From NCBI GenBank assembly GCA_964036195.1, contig OZ038450.1, forward strand, positions 808,701 through 872,700: a stretch of 64,000 nucleotides of DNA, in the 5' to 3' direction. Below the pieces are notes generated by a model, which worked only from the letters and a program-made list of their open reading frames with translations, did not search any database and was not told where the DNA came from. The stretch comes from Sphaerolaimus hirsutus (lineage: Eukaryota > Nematoda > Chromadorea > Monhysterida > Sphaerolaimidae). The position numbers and the translations under genes are program-made. Below, piece by piece: positions 5,103-46,100 of this stretch; position 1 is the first letter of the stretch, and each line of letters opens with the position of its first letter.

Positions 5103-7384
5103 GTGCCGCTCCCGCACCCTGTCAAATGCCTGTAGAATGTCAAATGGCATGCAAAGTGTCTAAAGTCATGCGAAATGCCCTGCAAAACGTCCTGCAATCA
5201 TGGCAAAAAATTGGTGTGTGATGTGTCGGGAAGTGGCTTTCATGGCGACACTTCCCGACGCTGTGACTAGCTGGCTGGCGCTTCCCGGTGCTTCACGAAA
5301 TATTTTGTGAAGACACTTCACATCACAGACGTGCATCACAACACAGCACAAAGGTTTTGTAAAATGTCTTTACTTCGTCAGCGTCCGGAAGCGCGCTTCA
5401 CGAAATTTTGGACCTCGTGATGATAGGTGAAGTGTGTGGAAGTGCTTCACGGTGTCTTCCAGCCCGCTTCCAGACACTTCACGGACCTATTTTTTTGCTG
5501 TGAAAGTGACAAAAATCATATAGATTGACTGTAAAATGGCAAACCTACGTACATACTGCTAATCTTCGAATAAGTCCCCCCTCTCGAATAACTCCCCCTC
5601 GAATAACTCCGTATGCAATGAAAAACACAAAAAGAATGTTTTACCGAACGCATCGACGTACATACTTAAATGTACAGAATACTCTGACGAAAAAACTCTC
5701 TCCTCGGATAACTCCCACTCTATTACCCCCTAACCCCCCTCAAAAAATAACTCTCCCGGGGATTTATTCGAGGATTTACGGTAGGTATGTCTTTGTTGTT
5801 TAGACACTTTGTATTACATTTTAATTGGTCATGGCACTTTGCATGGTGCGGGAGTGGGCGCAGGGTGAAGCGCTTCTACTCGTGGGAGGGCGTGGGCGAC
5901 GGGCAGGACAAACGGGAGGACACCGAGCGCCATCTGTATGCCCTACTGCGCACGGGCAAGCGGGCTGCCCGCCCCAGCGCCGCCCAGCAGATGCGGAGGC
6001 TGTTCGGTGCGTCAAGGGCTTGCTTCGCAGCAAAATGGGTGTATGTGTGTGTGTGTGTGTGTGTACTTGCAAACACGCCATGAAGATGTGGCGGTGCTGG
6101 TGGATGTGTGGAAGCACACGTGCAGGCGGCGCGCACACATCACTCCGGGTGGTCGGGCGCCGCGATCGACCTAATGTGGATTGGAACGCGTGTTTGCTCG
6201 ACGCAGGCAAGCGGCAGGTGCGCGGGCGGCCGGCCAAGTTATACAGCTGGGCGGGCAAGCGGCGCGAGCCTCACCAACCCCTGTCCTGGATACACAAAGG
6301 TGCACCCGGTCGCCTGCAAGCCAACAATCCACCTTTCTATATACTCTATATGTTACCTCGAATTATCCCCCCACTCGAATACACCCCTCTCGAAATACCC
6401 CCACGTCTGAACGAGCTAAAGAGATAACCCCAACCCGAAATATCCTACCCAAATAGAGTGTAAAGAGCATGTACACTACAAATCAGAGTTGTTAAAAGTA
6501 CTGAACTTTTTTCAAAGTAAACATAAACGTAAAGTATTTTTTTTACTCAACCCTGAGTACAGAAAACGTAAAGTATTCTTTAAATACTTTTACACTGCGT
6601 AAAACGTGAGTAAAATACTTTAAATCATCAAATATTATCGAATACATCAAATATTTTTTGTATCTCCCGATAACTATTTCTTAGGAAAATGTCCAATTTT
6701 TGTCACTTTCTGTCTGTCAAAATGTCACCTTCTGTGTCTCGCTTAAATACGTTTTTGGTACTCGCGTACTTTCGAAAAGTATGCGAGTAAGTTGGGGAGA
6801 CATTAAATTTTTGAATTTTCCCACAAATTTTTGAATTTTTTTGAATACCAGCTGGGGAGACATTGAATTTTTTTTGTTCCCGATCAGGAAGCTAAACACA
6901 TTTTTCCAGGAGTGTACACTGAAAAAAAGTTATTTATTTTAACAACTCTGCTTTTGTCCTCTATTAAACTTTGCGAATATACAGCAAATGGTTGAATCAC
7001 TGCGCCCCTCAGCTGCGCGCGAAGATTTTGATTCCTCCCACTTTCTATTCAAAAACTTACGTGAAGCAGATGTGAACTAATTAATTGATCACTCACGCAG
7101 ACAAAAGGGTGCAAGACTACAGCGGCGACCTGGTTGGGGATAGGGATGCGAGGCGGTTCGAGTCGATCGGTTATGGCAAACGTTTTGAACCTGTGGGCTA
7201 TGGCAAACGTTTGGAAACTGTCGAGGCTGGCAAACGTTTCGAGCCAATGGGGTACGGCAAACGTTTCGAGCCAATGGGGTACGGCAAACGTTTCGAGCCA
7301 ATGGGGTACGGCAAACGTTTCTATGCTTGGTCGGGTGCCAGCCCCAGCAAGCGTCCCTTTCATGAGTGGGTAGGCAAAAAGTGA
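4987..7384 (+). CDS. Multi-peptide neuropeptide/prohormone precursor, four exons, 211 aa
   Basis: Exons 4987-5102, 5864-6006, 6207-6299 and 7101-7384 join in phases 2, 1, 1 with GT-AG introns and give 211 residues plus TGA. Residues 1 to about 33 are a signal peptide (hydrophobic run LCLAWLACVALGALAA). The rest is cut by KR or RR into: FYSWEGVGDGQD (43-54); EDTERHLYALLRT-G (57-70); a peptide ending MRRLF-G (73-87); a peptide ending KLYSWA-G (90-103); EPHQPLSWIHKD (107-118); VQDYSGDLVGDRDA; FESIGY-G; FEPVGY-G; LETVEA-G; FEPMGY-G three times; FYAWSGASPS; and PFHEWV-G at the C-terminus. Gly before KR or KK implies C-terminal amidation. The product would be secreted from neurons or endocrine cells. 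The start is the first ATG, in the context CAGCGATGG, and it opens the signal peptide. No AATAAA was seen within 500 bp downstream. I do not recognise the family. The FxxxxY-amide core has the spacing of RYamides but lacks their Arg, and HLYALLRT faintly recalls NPLP1 peptides; neither assignment is secure. Confidence 0.82.
5103..5863 (+). mobile_element. Introner-like element forming intron 1 of the peptide precursor
   Basis: The intron opens with the left terminus GTGCCGCTCCCGCACCCTGT and closes with its inverted copy, GGTGCGGGAGTGGGCGC, then AG. Sub-repeats such as GGCATGCAAAGTGTCTA are mirrored near the right end. AG flanks the element on both sides, so splicing from GT to AG removes the element plus one AG. 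The centre holds later insertions: an element rich in CTTCACG and GGAAGTG (about 5225-5490) and part of a family A MITE (5563-5782). Confidence 0.7.
5864..6006 (+). CDS. Peptide precursor exon 2
   Basis: Acceptor GGGCGCAG|G and donor TTCG|GTGCGT. It encodes VKR-FYSWEGVGDGQD-KR, the HLYALLRT peptide with G-KR, and the peptide ending MRRLF. The amidation Gly codon is split G|GC across intron 2. Confidence 0.78.
6207..6299 (+). CDS. Peptide precursor exon 3
   Basis: Acceptor CGACGCAG|GC and donor CACAAAG|GTGCAC. It completes the Gly and KR of the MRRLF peptide, then encodes the KLYSWA-GKR peptide and EPHQPLSWIHK. A (TG)n microsatellite at about 6039-6064 lies in the intron before it. Confidence 0.75.
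6353..6455. mobile_element. Family A MITE fragment in intron 3 of the peptide precursor
   Basis: TACCTCGAATTATCCCCCCA and related C-rich blocks, without a matching right terminus. Intron 3 (6300-7100) also contains the family B element at 6484-6954. Confidence 0.5.
6484..6954. mobile_element. Family B palindromic MITE (CAGAGTTGTTAAAA)
   Basis: Starts CAGAGTTGTTAAAAGTACTG and ends AACAACTCTG; the arms carry GTAAACATAAACGTAAAGTA and inverted equivalents. It lies wholly in intron 3 of the peptide precursor. Confidence 0.65.
7101..7384 (+). CDS. Peptide precursor exon 4 with FExxGY-amide repeats
   Basis: Acceptor ACTCACGCAG|AC. It starts with D-KR, then a linker, then FESIGY, FEPVGY, LETVEA and three FEPMGY copies, each followed by G-KR. 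FYAWSGASPS-KR and PFHEWV-G-KK come before TGA at 7382. The three FEPMGYGKR units (7238-7264, 7265-7291, 7292-7318) are 27-bp repeats with the same codons throughout. Confidence 0.85.
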
Positions 7385-28100: not shown

Positions 28101-31100
28101 GTTTTAAATGAATCCTCGTTGTCTAAAGTATATGATAACATGTTCAAAAAATTATTTTTTCACGTTCAAAAACTGGGTCAAATTGACATATGGAATTTAG
28201 ACATCATTAAACCGACCACAAAAATAGAATCTGCAGGTTGTCCCGATCATTTGAAGTGTTGAATGATTCAAATCAGCCCAGAAATGGTTGAGTTTTTAAG
28301 CTTCAAAGACACTCATCCAGATTGCCCATTTTTTGATTATTTCTTGACCATCTTTTTATAGACCCCCCTTATCTCCGGCCTGGGGGTTTATTTGAGCAAA
28401 CAAAAAATTTTCGTTGTAGCCCCAGCATCAAACCCCAACATACTCAAACGGCATCACAATTGGGCAAGGGACTAGAAATTGGGAAGCAAAAAAGTGCAGT
28501 GGACCCCCAGCCTACTGTTTCTCTACGTGTGAAAAGTCTCAACTATTCTGCACGGTAGTGTATAACGAACCTCGAGCTAGTAGTGTGCGTCTCGGCGCGT
28601 CTGTCATCGCTGCGTCCAGCGGAGGCGCCCCTGTGTTTGTGGTGCACCGGGGGTGGGCTGGCGCGTCCATTGCGGGGGGTGCGGGGGGTGCGTCTGCTGC
28701 GCGACGTGGACAAGTCGTTGGAACGTCTGCTGCACCCGTGCTGCTGCGCTGGAGGGGTGCCCATGCGTCTGCTGGAGCGGCGTCGAGATGAAGTGCGCAC
28801 CTGGCGCGTCGGCGACCGGCCAGAGCACCGAGACACGTCTGCGGGCACGTGTTTGGATTTATCATGTAAATGCTAACGCCAGGGGTCAGATTTAATTCTC
28901 GAGTAATGCGGCCTACACACCGGACGAATCAAAATGTACCTGGGTATAAATAAAATGACCTTGAGGCACATTTTACCGATGTTGAACCGTAAAATTTAAA
29001 GACGATGTCGCAATGTTATGAAAAACATTGCGATTAAAAGTTTTCTTAATTTTACCGATCGAAATCCATATCTTTTGTCTCAAAATTGCTTTATTTAGAC
29101 CGCGTTTACATGGTTTTTTTTGTGACGACTCGGCAACACTGAAAGGTTCAATATGTTGAGAAAAAGGTTCCATATTCATGAGAAAAAGTGGTCATTCATA
29201 CATTCTACCTAGTCGAATGTGCATGCCAAATTGCAAAAATGTACTTATACTAGCAGGATTCTCTCCGACCTTCGGTCGGGTTTTGTGGTTCTCTACAATT
29301 AATACCATTGGAGAAAATATGATACTTTAGTTAAGTTTGCCCACATGCTAGGCATGTGTTTTGAAATGCGGTATGTAATCTACCAACAATAACAAGACCA
29401 ATACCAAAGATGCAATGTTTTGGAATGGATTTTTGTAAACTTCTGTAAAATGGTTGGGCATGAAACTCGGTAGTAAAATGTAGACAGTTTGCGATTTGGT
29501 ATGATGGTGTGCAGTGTGCAATCTGTGTGGTATAGGTTTTGTGATATGATAGTGTGGTTTTTGCAAGGTGTCAAACTTTGTTGTAATCTTCAATTGGTTA
29601 CATTTGTGCTTTGCTGTTCTTTTTGTGTTTGTAAATCCTTGTGGTATAAATTGTAGAGAACCACAAAACCCAACTGAAGGTTGGAGAGAATCCTGCTATA
29701 GGTACCCACTACTCAGAGGCTTGCAAAAACTGACACCCCAATGGGGACCCCCCTCCAAATGGCACCCCCTGGGGAACCTCCCAAAAGTGGCAACCCCTGG
29801 GAACCGCCCAAAAATGGGACCCCCTAGGGCCCCACAAATATGGCACCCCCTGAGGACCAGCAAAAAATGGCACCCCTTAGGGACCCCCCAAAAATGGCAC
29901 CCCTTAGGGACCCCCCAAAAATAGCACCCCTGGGGACCCCCCAAACATGGCACCCCCTAGGAACCCCCACAAAAATGGCACCCCCTGGGGACCCACCCAA
30001 AGTTGGCTCCCCCTGGTGACTCTACAAAACCCAACTGAAGGTTGGAGAGAATCCTGCTTTAGGTACCCACTTCTCAGAGGCTTGCAAAAACTGACACCCC
30101 AATGGGGACCCCCCTCCAAATGGCACCCCCTGGGGAACCCCCCAAAAGTGGCACCCCCTGGGAACCGCCCAAAAATGGGACCCCCTAGGGCCCCACAAAT
30201 ATGGCACCCCCTGAGGACCACCAGAAAATGGCACCCCTTAGGGACCCCCTAAAAATGGCACCCCCTTGGGACCCCCCAAAAATAGCACCCCCTGGGGACC
30301 CCCCAAACATGGCACCCCCTAGGAACCCCCACAAAAATGGCACCCCCTGGGGACCCACCCAAAGTTGGCTCCCCCTGGGGACTCTCCAAAAATGGCACCC
30401 CCCTGGGGACCCCCCCTCAAAATGGCACCCCATATGGACCCCCCCCCCCCCCCCCCGCAAAAAAAAATATAGCACCCCCCTGAGGACCACCAAAAAATGG
30501 CACCCCTGGGGACCACCCAAAAAATGGCATCCCATGTGGACCCCCTTGAAATGGCACCCCCATATGTACCTCCAGAAAATGGCACCCCCTGGAGACCCCC
30601 CAAAAATGGCACCCCATGGGGACCCCCTCTAAATCCTGTAAACACAGCCCCTAGTTTGGAAACTCCTGTAAACTCAGCCCCTAATTTGGAAAATGGTATG
30701 AATATTTCAAAAAATCACTATCATCAATCCACAAATGCATCAATTCACAATTTTCAATTTTTTAGCCCCAGGGGTTAGACTTAAAAAGTTATGGTAATGT
30801 AGAGTAGAAATGGAGTGCACATCTCAAATCAGTGCAATAAAAAACCCACAAATGCATCATTTCACAAATTGAAAGTTTTTGTGCCCAGGGGTTCATTATC
30901 AGGGTTTTAGTAATGTGGTGTCAAAATGGAGTGCATATTTGAAATCGCTACAATCAGAAACCCACAAACACATCATTTTATGATTTGAAAATTTTTGGCC
31001 CTGGGGGTTCATTTTCAGGGTTATGGTAATGTAGTGTCAAAATGAAGTGCATATTTCAAATCAAGGCAATCAAAAAGCCACAAATGCATCATTTCACAAT

Positions 31101-34100: not shown

Positions 34101-37100
34101 TGTATGGATGACCACTTTTTTCATGCATATGGAACATGCTTTTTAATCAACTTATTGAACTTTTTAGTTTTGTCGAGTCGTCACAAATAAACCGTGTAAA
34201 CGCGGCCTTTTACATTTTGATTATCTGGCGTGTAGGGTCAGGGTGCATTAATGCTGCTATTACAGCTCGGGCGTAAAATTAACCGGGCATAAATTGATTT
34301 TTGGGCATAAAATTAATTACAGGTGAATGGATAACGATATGGCGTTGTAATTTCAGTCAAAGAAAGTGCACATGCAGATGTTGCTTGTGTCCAACGCTCA
34401 TTAGTTTATTCGAATTGTACTAGAAGTTATGAATTTTGGCGCAAATTTTTTTCATTTTACACCCTTATTTTATGCAACTGACAGCGCACAATTGAAAAAA
34501 TTGTGCTAAAATTCATCACTCCCAGTACGATTAAAATAAACTCAGGAGCTTTGGACACAAGAAACGTCTGCATCTAAGCTTTCTTTGACTGAAATAACAA
34601 TGTCGTATACCCTAGTTACTTTACACCCTGCACGCGTGGTTCCCGCTGGGAGTGTGCCAACGATGGTTAGCGCGTGCGAGTTTCATAAAAAGATGACAAA
34701 ATTGATTGTTGTTATAATGTTATTCATTTACATATTCACATCGATGAATTTTTTCATCTTTTTACGGAAATCGCGTGACTTAGCAATCATTGGCACGCTT
34801 CCAACACGAGACATAAATCAGTGCGACGGCAGAGTATCATGTACGCCGAGTATAACTTTATCCATTCATCTGTAATTAATTTTATGCCCAAAATCAATTT
34901 TACGCCCAGTCAATTTTACGCCCGAGCGGTAATCGCAGCATACGCGAGATTAAATCTGGCGACAGGAAATGTCACTTCTGGGTAGGAAATGACAAACAAT
35001 TGGATTGCGATTTCCCACCCCCTCCACGTATAGGTGTGGAAAAACGTATTTACGTTTACCCGAAATACCCGGTTATTTGGGTATTTATACTTACGTTTAC
35101 GTTTACGTTTTCCAAAAATACCATTACGTTTTGTTACGTTTTCCTGACCAAAATACCCGGGTACTAGGGAAAACGTAAAAAACTTGTGATCGTTCACATG
35201 ATACATAAATACATACAAAACATATTTACATACAAAAATGTAGTGTATGAAAAAAGTGACTGCACGCTTGCACTTACACATGGAATACTGGGTACATATT
35301 CATAAATGTGTTCAAAAGCTGAACACAAAAACCTTTGATTCTGGAGCGTTGCGTTTATAATTTTTTTGTGATGAATTGTGACCACTTGCACAACTGTGAG
35401 TAGTACATGTTTCGAAACTGGCAGGGCGAGTGCAAGCTCTGGTGCCAATCCCAGACTCTGTAGGATGTCCTGTAAAATGTAAAATTTCATGCAAATGTCA
35501 AACTCATGTAAAATGCCCAGCAAAATGGCAAAGATTTGCCACCTTCCAGGGCACTTTGCAAGACTTTAGACACTGCATGCCATTTGACATTTTACAAAGC
35601 ATTTTACAGGGTCTGGGACTCCCCCAGAATCACCAGCGTTAGTTGGATTTAGCCACACTTACTACAGAAAGTGGTGCAGATGGAATGATTGACCCACCTG
35701 AAGGTGAAAATAATGGTACCGTATTTCCTTGAATTACCCCCTGGGGGTTTATTTTTTCAGAGTGAAAATTTTGGGAGAAAAACGTGAAAAATGCAACAAT
35801 AACCACCATTTATAAGTTTTTACAGCCTTATATAAGGATGTAGATGGTATAAACGATGTTCTAACGTAACACAGTAAGTGTTTTGAACGTCTGCTATGCA
35901 TTTCCCGGATTACAAATTCATAGTGCCCATTTTGAGGGGGGGTATTTCGAGGGGGGGGGAGGGTATTTCGAGGAAATACGGTATTTATATTCCAAAGCAC
36001 AATGGCAAATATGGTGTGTAAAATTTTTTACGTTTACGTTTTTTTTTACGTATTCCTTGGTATTTTAAAAATACCTTACATTTTAGTATTTATACTTTTT
36101 ATTTGGAAAAGGTATTTACGTTTACGTTTACGTTTTCCAAAAATACCAGTATTTGCACAACTCTGGTGTGGAGTAGCGATGGCAAACCCTCTCCAAGTGT
36201 TTAAATTGTTCAAGGATGAGTTCCAAAATGAAATTCAGATTTGAAATTTTCAGTTTAAAATAGTTTTAGAATCGTAGAATTTTCCTTGAAAGTGATTTTT
36301 CACAAGGTCCAATTTTTTTTGAAAACTCTGAAAAACTCTCAAAAATTTGGAAACGTTGTCGAATTTCTGTCCATCGAATTTTTGTTTGCCATCGTCAGTG
36401 GTCACATAAATTTTATGTGTGCTAATGCGTGATGTAAACCACTAATTTTAGTGGTTTACATCACGCATTAGCATAAAATAATTACAATCAAGCTTTGTCT
36501 TACCTCTGGCGTATCTGTGGAACCTGGCCATATTAGCCTCGTGTCTGCTGAGTAGTTTAGCACCAGGGTCAAGTCTCTGGGGCCGGGCCAGCGCCACCGG
36601 CATGTCCCTGGAGGCACTCCCAGGGCCTGTAAAGTGCCCTGGAAAATAGAAATGCCATGCTAAGGGTTTCTGAAATCATGCAAAATCCCTGCCAATAGCA
36701 AACGTTTGCCATTTTGCGTGACATTTTTCATGACTTTAAACACTTTGCATGACATTTAACATTAACAGGGCATTTTACAGTGTCTGGGAGTGGCACCTGG
36801 CGTCGGTGAGACACGTTGGCTCGGTGTAGATGTCGGTGGTGCTCGGGGTCCGTCTGCGTCTGGGGCTGCGGCTGCGCAGCTCGTCCGACGTGTCCGACCG
36901 CGTCAGGTTCGAGTAGCCGCTCGACGCAGCCTCCTGGCGAGCGACATTCAACGGCGCGGCGCGCGGAGCCACGCCGCCGCTGCCTGCGCCCCAAGCGCGC
37001 CAACTTTGCATCACATTTCACATTGTACACGGCACTTGACTTGGCTTTTCACACTGTAGCAGTGTACAAGAGCATTTTGAATTACAACTGGAGTTTTCCT

Positions 37101-40100
37101 CGAAATACCCCCCTTGAATAAACCCCCCTCGAAATTCCCCCAGGTGTTTTTGAGCTGAGGAGAAAATACCCCCCTCGAAATACCCCCCGTCTGGAATGAT
37201 GTACATAATTTATGCAATTTTATGCATGTACATGTACATGTATTTATTGATGCCAATTTGCATCGCAGATATGCATATTTATACGCTAATTTGTGTACAG
37301 ATGTACCTCTATATCCCCGATATGTCTCACATTTATATCGGTTTTGGGTATGAAAAAGCATACTCTTTACTATGAATTTCATGAAAATTTCTGACGGAAT
37401 AATAACCCCCCACTCCTCGAATAAGCCCCCGCCTTCCCTCGAAATAACCATCCTCAAAATTTCCACTTTGAAAAACTAAACCCCCTAAGCGTATTTCGAG
37501 GAAATGCGGTAATATAGGTATGTTCCAAGAACTTAACTTAACTGTCCTAGCTTTGTGGACATATTCCGGACATTGAGGGCGTAGTAGACTACGGTAAATG
37601 TCCGGTATATGTTTACAAAGCTGCGACATAAGTCTTTGGGACATATCTATCCATTTGGAATGCAAAAGCATGCAACTTTGTCTAGGGTCTAGGATTTTTT
37701 TACGGGAAACGGAAAGGTTGAAAGTTTCCGTGTGAAAAACGTCGACAACCTATGAGAGAACCGACCATCTCCGTAGTCGTAGCTGGAGCAGCTGAAATAT
37801 TCGCTGGCGGTGGCCTGGCTGCTGTCGGCGCTGCTGGGCGGCGCGTCGACTTTGTGCTGCTGCTGCTGCCGCTTGTACTTGAGGAAGTCGTACAGCCCCG
37901 ACGACGGTCTGAATGGAGCCGCGTTGGCGCTGTCCCCGGCCCCGTCGCCTTCGGGCTTGGACGCGTCGCCGCACGGCTTGTATCTGCGGCGCCACAAGTA
38001 AAAACATGTCTACCTATATCCTGACATGACACTGCACAGTGAATGTTACCATCTTTTCAAGAATAAAATCACGTGGAAGATGTTGCATCTAGTTCACTGA
38101 CGGGAAGAGCAACGTAATGCGATGCGAAAATGAAACTACTTGGTTTTTATCCCAATCGGATATGGTAGATTGCATGATGTGCGTGGGCGGGATGGGACGT
38201 AGCACGTACCTTTTGCTGTTGTGCAGCCCCTTGCCGTTGGAGGCCCAGTCGAAGCCGCGCTGCTCGTCCTTGAGCATCATGCGTGCCACCGCCCGCTCGT
38301 CCACGGCCGCCTGCCTGTAGCTGCGCATGCGGCCCGTCGCCGGCGCCACCGCCGCGCCCCCGCCGCCATCTGCGACCGGGGCCCGTGCGTTAAGGGATTA
38401 TTCAGGGGGGGGGATTATTTTTTCCTCATGCGTCTCACGGGGTGAGATTATTCGAGGGGGGATTATTCAAGGGGGGTTATTCAAGCAAATACGGTATATA
38501 CATGAAAATAGCGATTATAAATGTGAAAATTTGCAAAATGGGTCAAATTTTAGTGAGTTTCTGCAAATTTTGAGCTTTCACTCACGTTTGTACAATACAC
38601 GCTTGTGAATGTCACAATGTGACAGTGAAATTTCTGCTTATGACACCAAAAATTTCACTTGCGACATACACAAGCGCCCAAGCACTTACGCCGCCTATGT
38701 TCGGCGGAGAATAAAGAGTTTGCCAGAGCCAAGAAGTGGGTGAGTAGGCTGGCTGACTGGACTGGACGTGTTGCGAATAGGAGCTTTTCAAGTGGACGCG
38801 CGTTCGACCTGGGTGCGCGTGCCGGGGCAGCGGCAGCCTGGCCACGAGGTAAGCGCCGATCTCCCTGTAGATGTCGGCCGACTGCAGAAAGTGGCTGGCG
38901 GGCACGAGCAGCGACAGGAACACGGGCAGGAAGAGCAGCGCGTGCAGGGCGCCCACGCCCACCACCAGCAGAACGGTCTTCACGAACGTGCGCACCATGT
39001 ACGAGTCTGCGATTGCAAACGTCTGCCACATTCATATTCGACAATATCACAATGTATAAAATATAAGCTTATTATGCTCAAACGAATAGAATTAGAATAG
39101 CATAACAGTGTCGATAGATAACAATGACAGTGCCGCACTCGCAGAGCAGCTCACCGATGGGCGCGAGGGCCATCACGCCCAGCACAGTGGACAGGGCCGC
39201 CTGTATGATGGGCGTGCCCACCGAGCGCAGCGCCGCGTGCGACCGCTTGCCGTCGTCGGCGCGAGACACCTGCAAAAGTGTACTCATAAGATTGCTTTAA
39301 GAAAGCTAAGATTAAAAGGCACAAAAATTTATTATTTTCATCCAAGTTGTTGTTTTTTAAAAATTTAGAACTCAATTTTATTGAAATTTATCACGTGATA
39401 GATGTTATTTTTCAATTTGAATCAAAAACGTATGGTGGAAAATAGGCTGACGTAAAATCAACTTTACGTTGACACAGTTGAGGAGTTTGTTTCCGAAACC
39501 CGTTATCTCCACGTTTTTCAATGTTGTCAAAATTGCATTTGAAACTTTGACATAAAACAAAAATAGTACTAATAATAACCCCCCCCCCCTCAAATAACCC
39601 CCCTAAAAATTTCCACTCTGAAAAAATTAACCCCCTGGGGAAATTCGGGGAAATACGGTAAATTAGAACGAAAGACTGAGAATGTAAAACGGACCAGAAA
39701 ATGATAGGTCATGTGCGCGGCGAAGTCGACGGAAAAACCAATAGACATTATGATGGTGATCATGGAGACGATGTCCAGGCGGACGTCCCACAGCGCCAGC
39801 CCCCCAGCCACGCCCGCGTTGATGCTGCGCCAACAGCACATCTTACCAGTGCCACATTTACACAAAGCGTTATAGCTTACGTTAGCGTGAGCAAAATTCG
39901 GACACTATTTTTGAAAAATTCGAAATTCAAGACGTCATTTGAAAACAAAAAAATGAAAAAATATTATAAATATTAGGTTGGAAAGAAAGTTCTGTCACTT
40001 CCTGCTGCTTTTATGCTCCGCTCCGCCTCGTTGCTAGAAACTGACAGAACTTTCTTTCCAGCCTAATAACACCGTTTATGCTGCGATTAGAGCTCAGGCG

Positions 40101-43100
40101 TAAAATTTACTGGCGTAAATTTAATTACAGGTGAATGGATAAAGATATGGCATTGTAATTTCAGTCAAAGAAAGCGCACATGTATATGTTGCTTGTGTCT
40201 AAAGCTCATCAGTTTATTTTAATTGTACTAGAAGTAATGAATTTTGGCGCAAATTTTTTTAATTTTACGCGCGAGCTGTAAGTTGTATAAAATTAAGGCG
40301 TAAATTAAAAAAATTTGCGCCAAAATTCATTACTTCTAGTACAATTAAAATTTAGATTTTACACTGGAATTTTACGCGCGAGCTGTAATCGCAGCAGTAC
40401 AGCAAAAAAAATGTGAATATCGGCGGTATGTTTGAGTGTTCAAAATGATCGCAAGAATGTGCACGCGCGGCGCACGTACCTGAGTATAGTCGCGCCAATC
40501 CACAGCGCAACGAGTATTTTGGGTATAAAGAGCAGAGTGATAGCTACCATCATGACCACGGCGATGATCACGTTGATGGCGGTCGAGCGCACCGTGCTGT
40601 CCTGTTGGTCGACCAGCAGGAAGTTGGTGTCGTACACGAAGCCGGGCAGACCTGCGGTCGCAGTGCTTCGTACGAGCCGCACAAACACTGCTTGGCCACT
40701 GGTTCCTATCCCAATTCGAAGCTCGCTGACCAGCCCACCAAGCAAAAGTGTTCAAGCAGGCAGTGCTGACAAAAATATTGCAGGATGAGCAATGTACATG
40801 TACAAAGCTGAAACGAAGTATATGTGTATACGTACGATAATGCGTCGCGTTACTTGTCAGCAATCTTTGAATTGGGATCTGAACCAGTTGACATTTGATG
40901 ACCCATTTGATTTGATGACCGAGTTTATCAACAAACAGATGTGGAGAGGGTAAAGCTACCTGAAAGAGCGAATGTACTCCTGAGAACGTTGGCTATCGCG
41001 GTGTGGTTCACCAGTCCAACGTGTCTCATCCTGATGAGCATTTTCGACGCCCGAATTTGTCCCAACGTTTCGGGATCGTCGGAAAATAACACATCGGTGG
41101 CCAAGTTCTGACTGCTCGGCTCCCGCAAGAAGGCCCGCAGCGTGATCAGGAACTGCTGCTCGCTTTGGAAAAGTCGACCGTTCGTGTGCCTGCGCGTTTT
41201 CGCGCACAAAAGTAAAACAATTTGCCGTTCACAACTTCATAAGGCAGGAAACGTTTACATGTTTGTTTAAGGATGACAGAAATTTTCAGTTTTCAAGCAT
41301 CTTTTCGTCATGAAAATTGAAAATTTGACTTGTGTAACCTCGTGATCTTGATCAGCCCAGGCTAGATCACATGAAATATCATAGATAATGTAATCACGCG
41401 CACTGGATTAAATACATTTTTCTACTATCGAGTGTTGCCGGGAGTATTTGTTCTTGCATCATCGTAATCAAGGCTGCATAGAACAAATACACTTAAAAAG
41501 CAAAAATCCCGACAAAAAGAGAACATTTAATATGCATAATTACTGTATATCCTTGAATAAGACCCCCTTGACTGACCCCCGCACTGAATAACTCTCCCTC
41601 TGTGATGGGTGGAAGAGATGTTGCAAAAAATTGAGAAAAGTGAACAATGAAGTCAGACAGACCAAATATAAACTGCCAGTCAATATAAACCGGCTTTCGC
41701 TCAAAATTTTTTCAAAAGTTTGTAGTTCGATCCAGGAAGGGAGTTCAGCCAAGGTGTTTGTATTTTTGGATAGCCCTAACATTTGTCTACTCGCACCCCC
41801 GGGGGGACCCCTGTGGCAATGGGGGTGCAGCCACAGGGGTCCCCCCGGGGGTGCGAGTAGACAAATGTTAGGGCTATCCAAAAATACAAACATATTGGCT
41901 GAACTCCCTTCCTGGATCGAACTACAAACTTTTGAAAAAAATTTGAGCGAAAGCCAGTTTATATTGACCGGCAGTTTAGCTATGCATGGGCTGATTCATC
42001 GAATGCAAATGCTATACAGTGTGTGAAATTGAAAATACAAAAGAATTTCCGTCTACAGCTGCAACAGCAGATGACATAGTGTTATTCTGAGGAAAAATAG
42101 CTCTCCCTCAAAAACTCTAATGAAAAATAACTCCCCTGGAGCTTTATTCAAGGATATACGGTACATGATCTATGAAATTTGAGGTTTGGCCTAGGCAGTG
42201 AGGGTGATGAAATAATGATCAATTGGGGCGTCATACATACAAAAAAATTATTTCCATTCCAAAATATGGTTGATAAGAAACATAAAGACTCGCCGCAAAA
42301 CGAAACGTGTGAACGCGGTAAAAATCAATCAGAAAGACTCTATTCGACCTACCTATCGAACTCGCTCAGCCAAAACTCTCCGTCGCTAGTGTAAACTGTA
42401 TTCGTGAGGTTACGGTATAGCTGCAGGACGTGCGCCTTGGTGTGCGGCTGGTGGTACTTGATTTGCGTGCCCTTGAGCACGCAGAAGGAGTAGCCCCCGT
42501 AGCTGGTGAAGTGCTCGGTCTGGCCGCTGAGCTCGTCGTTCAGGTAGGAGTCGCTGGGCACGAGCAGACGCAGGTCCAGCCCGATGGGCAGCTGCAGCAG
42601 GCCGTACACCGCGCCGCCTGGGGCATTCGTGGTGGGTGCGGTCTATACACTAGTGCACTGGCTCATTCGATGCATACTGGTGGGTCCACTCACATTGTAT
42701 TAGGTTGGAAAGAAAGTTCTGTCCGTTTCTGCTTTTATGCTCCGCTCCGCTTCGTTTCTAGAAGCGGACAAAACTTTCTTTCCAACCACATAGTTCGTGC
42801 CGCACAGCCATCTCAAAATGTAAATAGGTACCTGCTGCAATGTCGGACAATTTGAGCCACATGTGCATTCAAAGATCGTCGAACGAAATTTTTGTCGTCG
42901 CAGAAAAAGCGTGTCAAGGCGCGGTTTACATTACTCTTTCAAAACCACATCGCATGACAGAGGGCATTTCCAATATAAGGCCACCGACCGATATAAACGC
43001 AATAGCATATGAGGACGAAAGCCCTGACGGCCCACACGTGCAGCAGGTCGGCGTAGGTGGTCGACAGGAAGTCGGTCACCAGCTGGGTGTCGCGCCGCCG

Positions 43101-46100
43101 CGCCGCCCCGCCGCCCGACTGCGGCCGCTCGCCCTGCCCGCCCGCGCACAGGACGCGCCACGTGGACGACTCGTCTGGGGGGGGGCATTGGCACTGCGTA
43201 CACAGATAGTACCCGACTGCAAGTTGGGCAACTCATAAATGTAAAATGTATTCTATACGCCTTTGGATTTGCCGGAATGAAAAGTTTGTCAACTAATATT
43301 GGCGGCGATCTGATGCACGTAGGCGCAACCACAATGAGTTAACAATTTGAATCAACTCAAATGGGTTCGAAGTCGATTTATGAGTTCCCAAATTTCGTGT
43401 ATGCATGTGGGCACAATGCACCAACCTTGGCACTGATGCTTGGGCTTGGTCTTCTGGAAAGTGATGCAATGTCTATTGGCAGCTTCCCTGCGCCCGCTGA
43501 GCGCCATGCACGCGGTGAAAAACGTCATTTGGAACAAGAACGCGTACAGGATGGCCAGCGCGCAGTACGTGCAGAAAATACCTGCGGTTCAGTTGACGGC
43601 GTGTTTCCTGAGGGTTTTCCTGTGTCGTGATTTTTTGTGACATTTGGCGGTGGTGTCGATGTCCACTATGTAGTGTGTGTAGGGCCAATCCTGAAAACCA
43701 GTCTTCCCAAAACAAATGCATCTAATTTTCAAATTAGTCGATAAAAACGTGTCGTGTCCATGAGCTGCTAGAATTGACAATTTATTTGAAGTATTGAGCG
43801 TCATCACAATCTTTTTATCGCCCATGTCCAAAAAGAACACAAAAATAATCATGTGAGTGTATACCACAGAAAAACTGGAGCAAAGGCATGCACAAGGTAA
43901 GGGAACATACGGACGGCGGCGAAACTGCTGACTGCGCCGACGCTGAAGCTGAGTCCGTCGGTGAGCGCGGTGATCATGATGCTGACGGCCGTGTCGGCCG
44001 AGGCGAGGCTCAGGCGCCGCTCCACCGACAGCAGCGGGTGCGTGGCGCGCCACCCCGCCAGCATCAGGAACATGTTGTCCACCGAGATCGCTGCGGGGAG
44101 GGGCAAGCGGGGCAGTGGTGGTGGACACACGTGAAAACTTGGTCCCATTTTTCATGTTTTTTTTTGCATCTTTTACCTCGTTCTTATATTAAGCAATGGC
44201 ATGTTCATGCGTCCTTTTTTGGAGGAATTTGTCGGGACTGCGATGATAATGGAGCGATTACAGCTCGGGCGTAAAATTCCAGCGTAAAATTCCATCGCAA
44301 AATTGATTACATAAAAGTGGATGATGATACAGGTCTGCAATTTTTCATGGAGAATATGTTTATCAATACCTTCATTGTGTCCGAGAGTCATCATCCACAG
44401 TCACTGCAATTTGATTGTGGAAATTCAAAAATTTCTATTTTACGCTGGAATTTTACGCCAGCTGAAGAAAAATCAATTCTACGCTATGTAATTGCATGCA
44501 ATCACCTGGCGTAGAATTGACTTTTCTTCAGCTGGCGTAAAATTCCAGCGTAAAATAGAAATTTTTGAATTTCAACAATCAAAATGCAGTGACTGTGGAT
44601 GATGACTCTCGGACACAATGAAGGTATTGATAAACATATTCTCCATGAAAAATTGCAGACCTGTATCATCATCCACTTTTATGTAATCAATTTTGCGATG
44701 GAATTTTACGCTGGAATTTTACGCCCGAGCTGTAATCGTAGCATAAGATCCGACCTAAGACCTTGCAATTCGACTTTTTATATCGATTTGTCTATCAAAT
44801 GCATACCGATCTCACATAAAAAGTCGGATTGAATCAAATGTATCATGAACTGAATGGAATCCGTCCATTCAAGTTTGAGTTAAAAAAGATACGTCATTGG
44901 TAACGAAGGGCCGAATCACTGAGTCGTTTCATGTCCGCCGAGTTTTAGTATAAAAACTTCGACAATACAAAAACTGTTCCACTTGAGACAGTTTGCCCGT
45001 CATCAAAACAGCAACCCGGTGCAAATTCCAAACCCTGTAAAATGCCCTGTAAAATGTCAAATATCATGCAAAGTGCAAGTGTAAAATGCCCTGGAAAATG
45101 GCAAACGTACGTTTGCCTTGTTCCAGGGCATTTCCCATGACTTTTGCCACTTTGCATGACATTTGTTATTTTTCAGGGGATTTTAGGGTCTGGGACCCCC
45201 CCCCCCACCTACACATGATCAGGAAGGGCATGATGAGCACCATGTGCATGAAGGGGTAGCCGGCGCCGGTGAGCGTGCCCAGCGTGGCTGTTATAGCGAA
45301 CACTGCGTTGGCGATGCCGCACACGCCCACCAGTGGCTTGCTCAGCACCCAGTCAGACGTGAAGCACGAGCACACGGAGAACACCTGTGGTGGCGCTCGG
45401 TAGTTTGATGGCGATTCTAGTCAACGTAAAATGACATGTAAAATGACGTAAAATGACAGGCAATGTGAGTGTTTGGATTATGCCTAATTTTTGTTTGGAT
45501 TTTGCCTAATTACATTTGGATTATGCTGCAGTTTGGGGCAGAAAAAGTGTTTGGATTATGTCTCATTTTCGTTTGGATTATGCCCCATTTTTGTTTGAAT
45601 TATGCTGTTTGGATTATGCGCTGTTTGAATTTTGAGCTTTCCCCCCTTTTAACAACTTTGCTTTACATGACAATTGGCAAATTTGTATGACATTTGACAC
45701 TTGACTTTACACTTTGCAGGGTCTGGGACTGGAAGCAGTTCTGGCCCACCATGTAACCCCCACCGTAGCAACCAGCCCAACCCACCACGAGCACGATGAA
45801 CAGCAGGGGCATGTAGGGCAGGATGAGCTGTCCGTTGCGCTCGATCTCGGCGCCCCAGCTGATTGCGGACGTGTAGTACAGCTTGATGCGGTCGTAGCGC
45901 AGAGAAGACACTAGGTCGATGAAGGCCCGCTGCCACGCGGACGCCAGTGTCGCCGACTGCGCGGGGTGGTGCGTGGGTGGGCTTGGGCTAGGGTAACCAT
46001 GGGCAAAGTTTCAAAAAAACTGTTATAATTTTTGGTGTTTTTTTCTAAAATGACTTTTCAGATTTCGATATGTTTCCACAAATATTTTCCAACGCTGGTC

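Follow-up and report, generated by a model that had tools for sequence, protein, structure and literature searches.

Candidate introners in the nematode Sphaerolaimus hirsutus: a palindromic element family with CWG target duplications and an asymmetric, donor-carrying end

Described introners and the family in Sphaerolaimus

The origin of new introns is an old question. In the available part of a survey of 3,325 genomes, introners were reported in 175, and among animals and land plants in two groups only, both of them animals, with copepods named (PMC9860276). An introner family of Chrysochromulina, as outlined in the accessible account of it, resembles the family described here in that many near-identical introns occupy new positions, the element bringing the GT and the duplicated target the acceptor, with mRNA length unchanged. 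That account, however, presents the family without terminal inverted repeats (TIRs) and with a target-site duplication (TSD) of 4 bp, whereas here we find clear TIRs and a 3-bp CWG duplication in an animal; moreover, unlike in the outlined Chrysochromulina introners, the duplicated target in many of our copies gives TG, not AG. In larvacean tunicates, the excerpted report on Fritillaria borealis (PMC13326754) describes transposon-derived, non-canonical introns and a U2AF that evolved for non-AG ends. Both cases involve an animal with transposon-linked introns and, here in one reading, a tolerance for 3' ends other than AG, but the same excerpt gives duplicated U2AF genes and a loss of GT/AG in 95% of introns, whereas most copies here start with GT. 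In human genes, TG 3' splice sites (GT-TG, U2 introns) are listed for 36 genes as alternative sites in the available text of PMC2374985; in our family, by contrast, TG would be the sole end for exact removal, and in a large class of introns. The CWG duplication, finally, is attributed in the portion of PMC4482050 at hand to the NuwaI group of the PHIS (PIF/Harbinger-ISL2EU-Spy) superfamily, found mainly in animals. As for literature combining introners with Harbinger, only a fungal study (PMC8476143) was found, whose available part mentions each term in passing.

New here are the CWG duplication together with TIRs in an animal, the asymmetric donor-carrying ends, and the large class with a TG 3' end. 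Introner families have reportedly been surveyed on a large scale again since then. A large animal family whose ends can be read, with a TSD of 3 bp and empty sites in near-identical copies, and presenting three ordered stages (CAG/CAG, CTG/CTG and CTG/CAG), would let one measure the passage from fresh insertion to spliced intron and the early need for a 3' AG.

The intron of the Patched-related gene and its surroundings

The window, a stretch of 64,000 nucleotides (G000:C1:808701-872700), belongs to a genome whose 762 contigs total 348,482,957 bases. It holds a Patched-related gene, one intron of which had been predicted to consist entirely of a transposable element. The features around this intron are as follows.

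36608..36796, minus strand: intron, GT...CAG, made up of the element and one TSD copy (from the sequence and the joined frame)
36611..36796, minus strand: MITE body, left end GTGCCACTCCCAG, right end GGGAGTGCCTC
36797..36799, minus strand: left TSD copy CAG, the end of the upstream exon (sequence; genome-wide triplet counts)
36608..36610, minus strand: right TSD copy CAG, giving the AG acceptor (sequence; genome-wide triplet counts)
36738..36800, unstranded: inverted-repeat arm 1, 63 nt, 75% complementary to arm 2
36607..36669, unstranded: inverted-repeat arm 2, 63 nt, 75% complementary to arm 1
36797..36975, minus strand, 5' border approximate: upstream exon of the Patched-related gene (open frame; joined frame)
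36504..36607, minus strand: downstream exon of the Patched-related gene, ending GAG/GTAAG (joined frame)

Read on the minus strand from 36796 to 36608, the intron starts with GTGCCACTCCCAG, its donor GT being that of the MITE body (36796-36795), and ends with GGGAGTGCCTCCAG; the exon bases are GACGCCAG before it and GGACATG after it. It comprises a palindromic MITE of ~186 bp, 87.0% identical to the family consensus, and a 3-bp TSD copy. When the exons are joined the frame stays open (19 residues, not shown), and the fold of the intron, its strand given as plus, has an energy of -76.5 kcal/mol (z -7.1), equalled by none of 200 shuffles. The sequence, the arms, the fold and the open joined frame confirm the structure described for the predicted intron. 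The palindromic nature assigned to the whole intron also holds, except that the inverted repeats fall short of the AG, at which they had been thought to stop. An 8-bp, hAT-like duplication at this copy (six of eight bases alike, by eye) was rejected, other copies showing 3 bp only.

Two of ten submitted open reading frames matched the Pfam family Patched (PF02460; 4.5e-16 and 3.2e-10), and the proposed identity of the gene is thereby upheld in two exons; the designation 'intron 18' agrees with an exon count that is a rough one. Ten other open reading frames of the window gave no Pfam match, and an Rfam scan of the window gave none either. Further elements in the window are listed below.

35442..35627, plus strand: second full-length element copy, about 1 kb from the intron
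45019..45207, minus strand: third full-length element copy, located right at the beginning (5') of the intron that follows the second Patched SSD exon
5103..5191, plus strand: left half of an element copy, GTGCC following an open frame that ends CCACCAG
44255-44738: foldback, arms 98% complementary
41669-41978: foldback, arms 97% complementary
40216-40351: foldback, arms 100% complementary
36420-36473: foldback, arms 100% complementary

The third copy probably lies within an older intron, the donor used being, by frame, the GTAGGT just before it. At 5103-5191, where the preceding open frame on the plus strand reads MATWQGG...SAAAT, a second element-derived donor is possible, the right half of the element having been lost or replaced. 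The foldbacks are further inverted repeats, long and near-perfect, in introns of the host gene and represent different elements. Two short elements (39971-40068 and 42698-42792) carry 33-nt inverted repeats starting TATTAGGTTGGAAAGAAAGTTCTGTC, which we take to resemble mariner ends, and both strands carry long, repetitive open frames (repeats of a 14-letter protein stretch, not shown) at about 29700-30630, which form a minisatellite-like block.

Copies, ends and target duplication of the family

With the intron as query, 3094 first-look candidates were obtained and 40 places were scored, one of them the window itself. In the alignment with genomic copies that the original prediction had proposed, the best of the 39 other scored places are ~81-83% identical to the intron. 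These 39 places, together with 20 further places best matching the consensus, share GTGCCA.TCCCAGACCCTGTAAAATGCCC...GGGTCTGGGA.TGCCCC and have C-N-G on both flanks. The family element is a near-perfect palindrome of about 188 bp with ends of the GGGGCACTCCC type next to a CWG TSD. Exact 26-mer left ends preceded by CAG number 1418 genome-wide and exact right ends with CAG 1126, with reversed-pattern controls at 0; the patterns tolerate no mismatch, so that these counts are lower bounds. An exact search for whole elements with strict ends (spacer 148-176) found 558 genome-wide. They are short, have TIRs and a TSD and lack a transposase gene of their own, as MITEs do, and, as in introners, many similar candidate introns are present at non-homologous positions.

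The triplets to the left and right of the 558 strict copies are CAG/CAG in 266, CTG/CTG in 169, CTG/CAG in 85 and CAG/CTG in 38, and are thus equal in 435 (p 3e-41, Fisher odds ratio 13.9). Since the two triplets agree in most copies, the duplicated target is CWG (CAG at the window intron) and replaces the AG first suggested. The TSD of the family has a length of 3 bp and reads CWG apart from rare cases, such as a single locus (L093) with CCG on both sides. The same left-right correlation rules out that CTG and CAG are the ends of longer TIRs whose TSD has been lost. The excess of CTG/CAG over CAG/CTG (85 versus 38; p 3e-5 before collapsing, with amplified copies in both classes and events not all independent) points to gain of an A at the right end, as would be expected if AG were selected after insertion.

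The ends of the element are unequal: the left is GTGCC and the right, read inwards, GGGGC, and GT comes from one end only. Symmetric GGGGGC..GCCCCC elements occur at five loci versus 558 asymmetric strict ones, and the T of the donor is accordingly a constant property of a single end. Judged by consensus, GTGCCA is a weak donor. In 88 of 112 copies the next AG upstream within the element is 19 nt away from the end; taking this internal AG as acceptor would put 101 of the 112 copies out of frame.

The CWG duplication is a likeness to the NuwaI group, here too in an animal, and points to a possible PIF/Harbinger affinity. A transposase with matching ends, as the NuwaI group would have it, was however not found among 30 of 163 DDE_Tnp_4 (PF13359) matches scanned: none is flanked by family TIRs on both sides, and a single one of the 30 has a TIR-like match, close to an edge, of the kind that a stray copy would give. 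On the 30 loci scanned, the PF13359 matches were rejected as the autonomous partner, since they form a large, different family. This family (L048-L077) is of Harbinger type, many of its 163 matches have nearly equal scores, and four TGA codons, perhaps introns, are read through in most members.

Coding context and the proposed making of splice sites

We propose that a non-autonomous palindromic DNA transposon (a MITE of about 188 bp), moved in trans by a putative PIF/Harbinger-type transposase, inserts at CWG, duplicates it, and then leaves the pre-mRNA as an intron. The left end of the element would bring the 5' splice site GT and the right TSD copy the 3' splice site, a CAG target giving an intron that ends in ...CCCCCAG; splicing from GT to CAG would remove the element and one TSD and restore the old exon exactly, in any codon phase. 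The split of roles in the original prediction, donor from the element and acceptor from the duplication, is supported, with CAG in place of AG. We infer splicing here from sequence, and hold it highly probable that the window intron is an introner.

Codon scores, trained on coding sequence of the same genome, were applied to 112 loci. Sample A comprised 52 of 60 loci (eight were dropped for want of a readable TSD or because of N), and sample B 60 loci, 20 each of CAG/CAG, CTG/CTG and CTG/CAG, taken from the starts of the lists. The model used 11 'verified' training loci, each left out when itself scored; two of them are weaker (L019, whose LRR match lies off the junction, and L122, a cadherin by eye only), and the upstream exon of the window is partly in the training set, so that the window copy is not independent in this scoring. 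Best frames picked separately for each flank agreed after excision at 47 of 112 loci (chance 1/6, p 2e-10); where both flanks had a confident frame, 28 of 42 agreed and 14 of 42 disagreed. In sample A, concordance was 22/52 with an earlier, smaller model and 17/52 with the later one. Forty-seven of the 112 loci scored as coding, with the element in sense in 44 of these; with a less strict cut-off, 28 of 34 were in sense in sample B on its own.

Pfam was given sense-frame peptides only, antisense frames being judged by codon score alone. In seven of 20 joined sense peptides a Pfam domain runs across the junction: VWA (L029), C2H2 (L043), PAS (L026), a WD40-type propeller (L093), adh_short (L096), the coatomer COPA/B propeller (L035) and DHC_N1 of dynein (L040). 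Two more had matches off the junction (L019, LRR; L014, below the cut-off), and 11 of the 20 had no Pfam match. Alignment with solved structures was free of gaps at the junction in all five loci tried, namely coatomer alpha (CAG/CAG), AP-2 beta (CTG/CAG), DCAF13/Sof1 (CCG/CCG), NPAS1/3 (CTG/CTG) and BCKDHA (CTG/CTG). By eye, other joined frames, L031 included, presumably resemble cadherin, SLC39A9, SLC5, GBF1 and PGAP2. As in introners, the element ends and TSD coincide with the predicted splice borders and the frame is restored; the exact restoration of the target foreseen for GT-to-AG excision thus holds for the family, although the duplicated target is CAG, not AG.

When 29 joined flanks were queried against the same genome (40 of 60 candidates scored), element-free sites were found for two loci. 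At L026, a PAS gene, an element-free copy 67 kb away is 96% identical over 110 nt and reads CAGC-CTG-GACGAC, with one CTG, versus CTG-element-CTG when filled. At L096, a short-chain dehydrogenase gene, 14 element-free tandem paralogues are 85-90% identical, and the one compared equals L096 in length after excision. The duplicates of L042 and L125 are also filled; the remaining queried loci matched only themselves, and 27 of the 29 yielded no element-free site. The joined flanks of the window intron gave no empty site in the same genome (40 of 60 candidates scored), and the intron-free versions expected of introners, present for two of 29 loci, do not include one for this intron. The introner reading had led us to expect other copies, coding junctions and empty sites, all three of which were found for the family. 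The array containing L096 (G000:C2:25.35-25.75 Mb) has at least 15 short-chain dehydrogenase copies in tandem; one of them, L096, carries the element, which starts with GG there, and may be a decaying paralogue.

An ordinary MITE could instead have landed in an old intron that then shrank until the element alone remained, and copies do occur within longer introns, such as that at 45019-45207. We consider this extremely improbable, because coding frames abut both element ends exactly at many unrelated loci, two loci have copies that lack the intron and keep just one target triplet, and it is not believable that introns shrank independently, time after time, to these same two bases. Alternatively, a stronger-looking donor at +18 might be used together with the terminal CAG, each insertion then adding six codons: GTAAA(A) stands there in 94 of 112 copies, the offset is a multiple of three and hence frame-neutral, and codon-adding introners are mentioned for Aureococcus in the available part of PMC9860276. 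Yet GTAAAA is present in both arms, and an antisense CTG/CTG copy, which reads CAG...CAG, would do equally well, whereas the coding-scored CTG/CTG copies are 11 in sense and two in antisense. The G-to-T asymmetry of the element termini would also be useless, and the structural alignments show no need for extra residues, which they cannot exclude. Use of the +18 donor seems to us very unlikely, and we retain excision from the terminal GT.

The canonical AG 3' end of U2 introns is present in the window intron and in the CAG-ended copies but absent from CTG-ended copies in coding exons (27 CTG/CTG copies examined among all 112 loci; 13 coding-scored, 11 in sense and two in antisense). The first AG downstream of these copies is in frame in four of 11, the chance level. 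In sample B, coding-scored sense copies make up 8/20 of the CTG/CTG, 10/20 of the CAG/CAG and 10/20 of the CTG/CAG class. CTG-ended copies thus lie in coding sense exons about as often as CAG-ended ones, implying either GT-TG introns, with TG serving as the 3' splice site, or insertions tolerated unspliced. Since CTG/CTG copies, apart from the two mentioned, were not found in antisense, where their end is CAG, the GT end seems to outweigh the AG end in this small sample.

It is quite possible, though we put it forward tentatively, that hundreds of transposon-made introns are spliced exactly despite a TG end (in single cases a CG end or a GG start), by virtue of the GT end and perhaps the hairpin, with AG acquired later by selection. 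If so, TG-ended introns would be intron birth caught before the 3' splice site matures. It is also quite possible, if short of probable, that the CTG-ended exon copies stay unspliced, being recent or heterozygous insertions by which the gene is broken on the assembled haplotype; the assembly cannot separate fixed from heterozygous insertions, and an intact element-free copy lies near L026, so that with this second copy of the gene the insertion there could be tolerated unspliced. Unspliced insertions, however, should be as frequent in antisense as in sense, but only two of the 13 coding-scored CTG/CTG copies are antisense (small sample; p 0.02, two-sided), and identity to the consensus is not markedly higher for CTG/CTG than for CAG/CAG copies (medians 92.75 versus 92.35%, 20 each). 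The copies at L030 and L032 begin with GG, as does that at L096, and belong to the five symmetric loci, with GGGGC at both ends and without GT. At L030 and L032 the element occupies the same place in sequences that are 96.7% identical, within an open sense frame.
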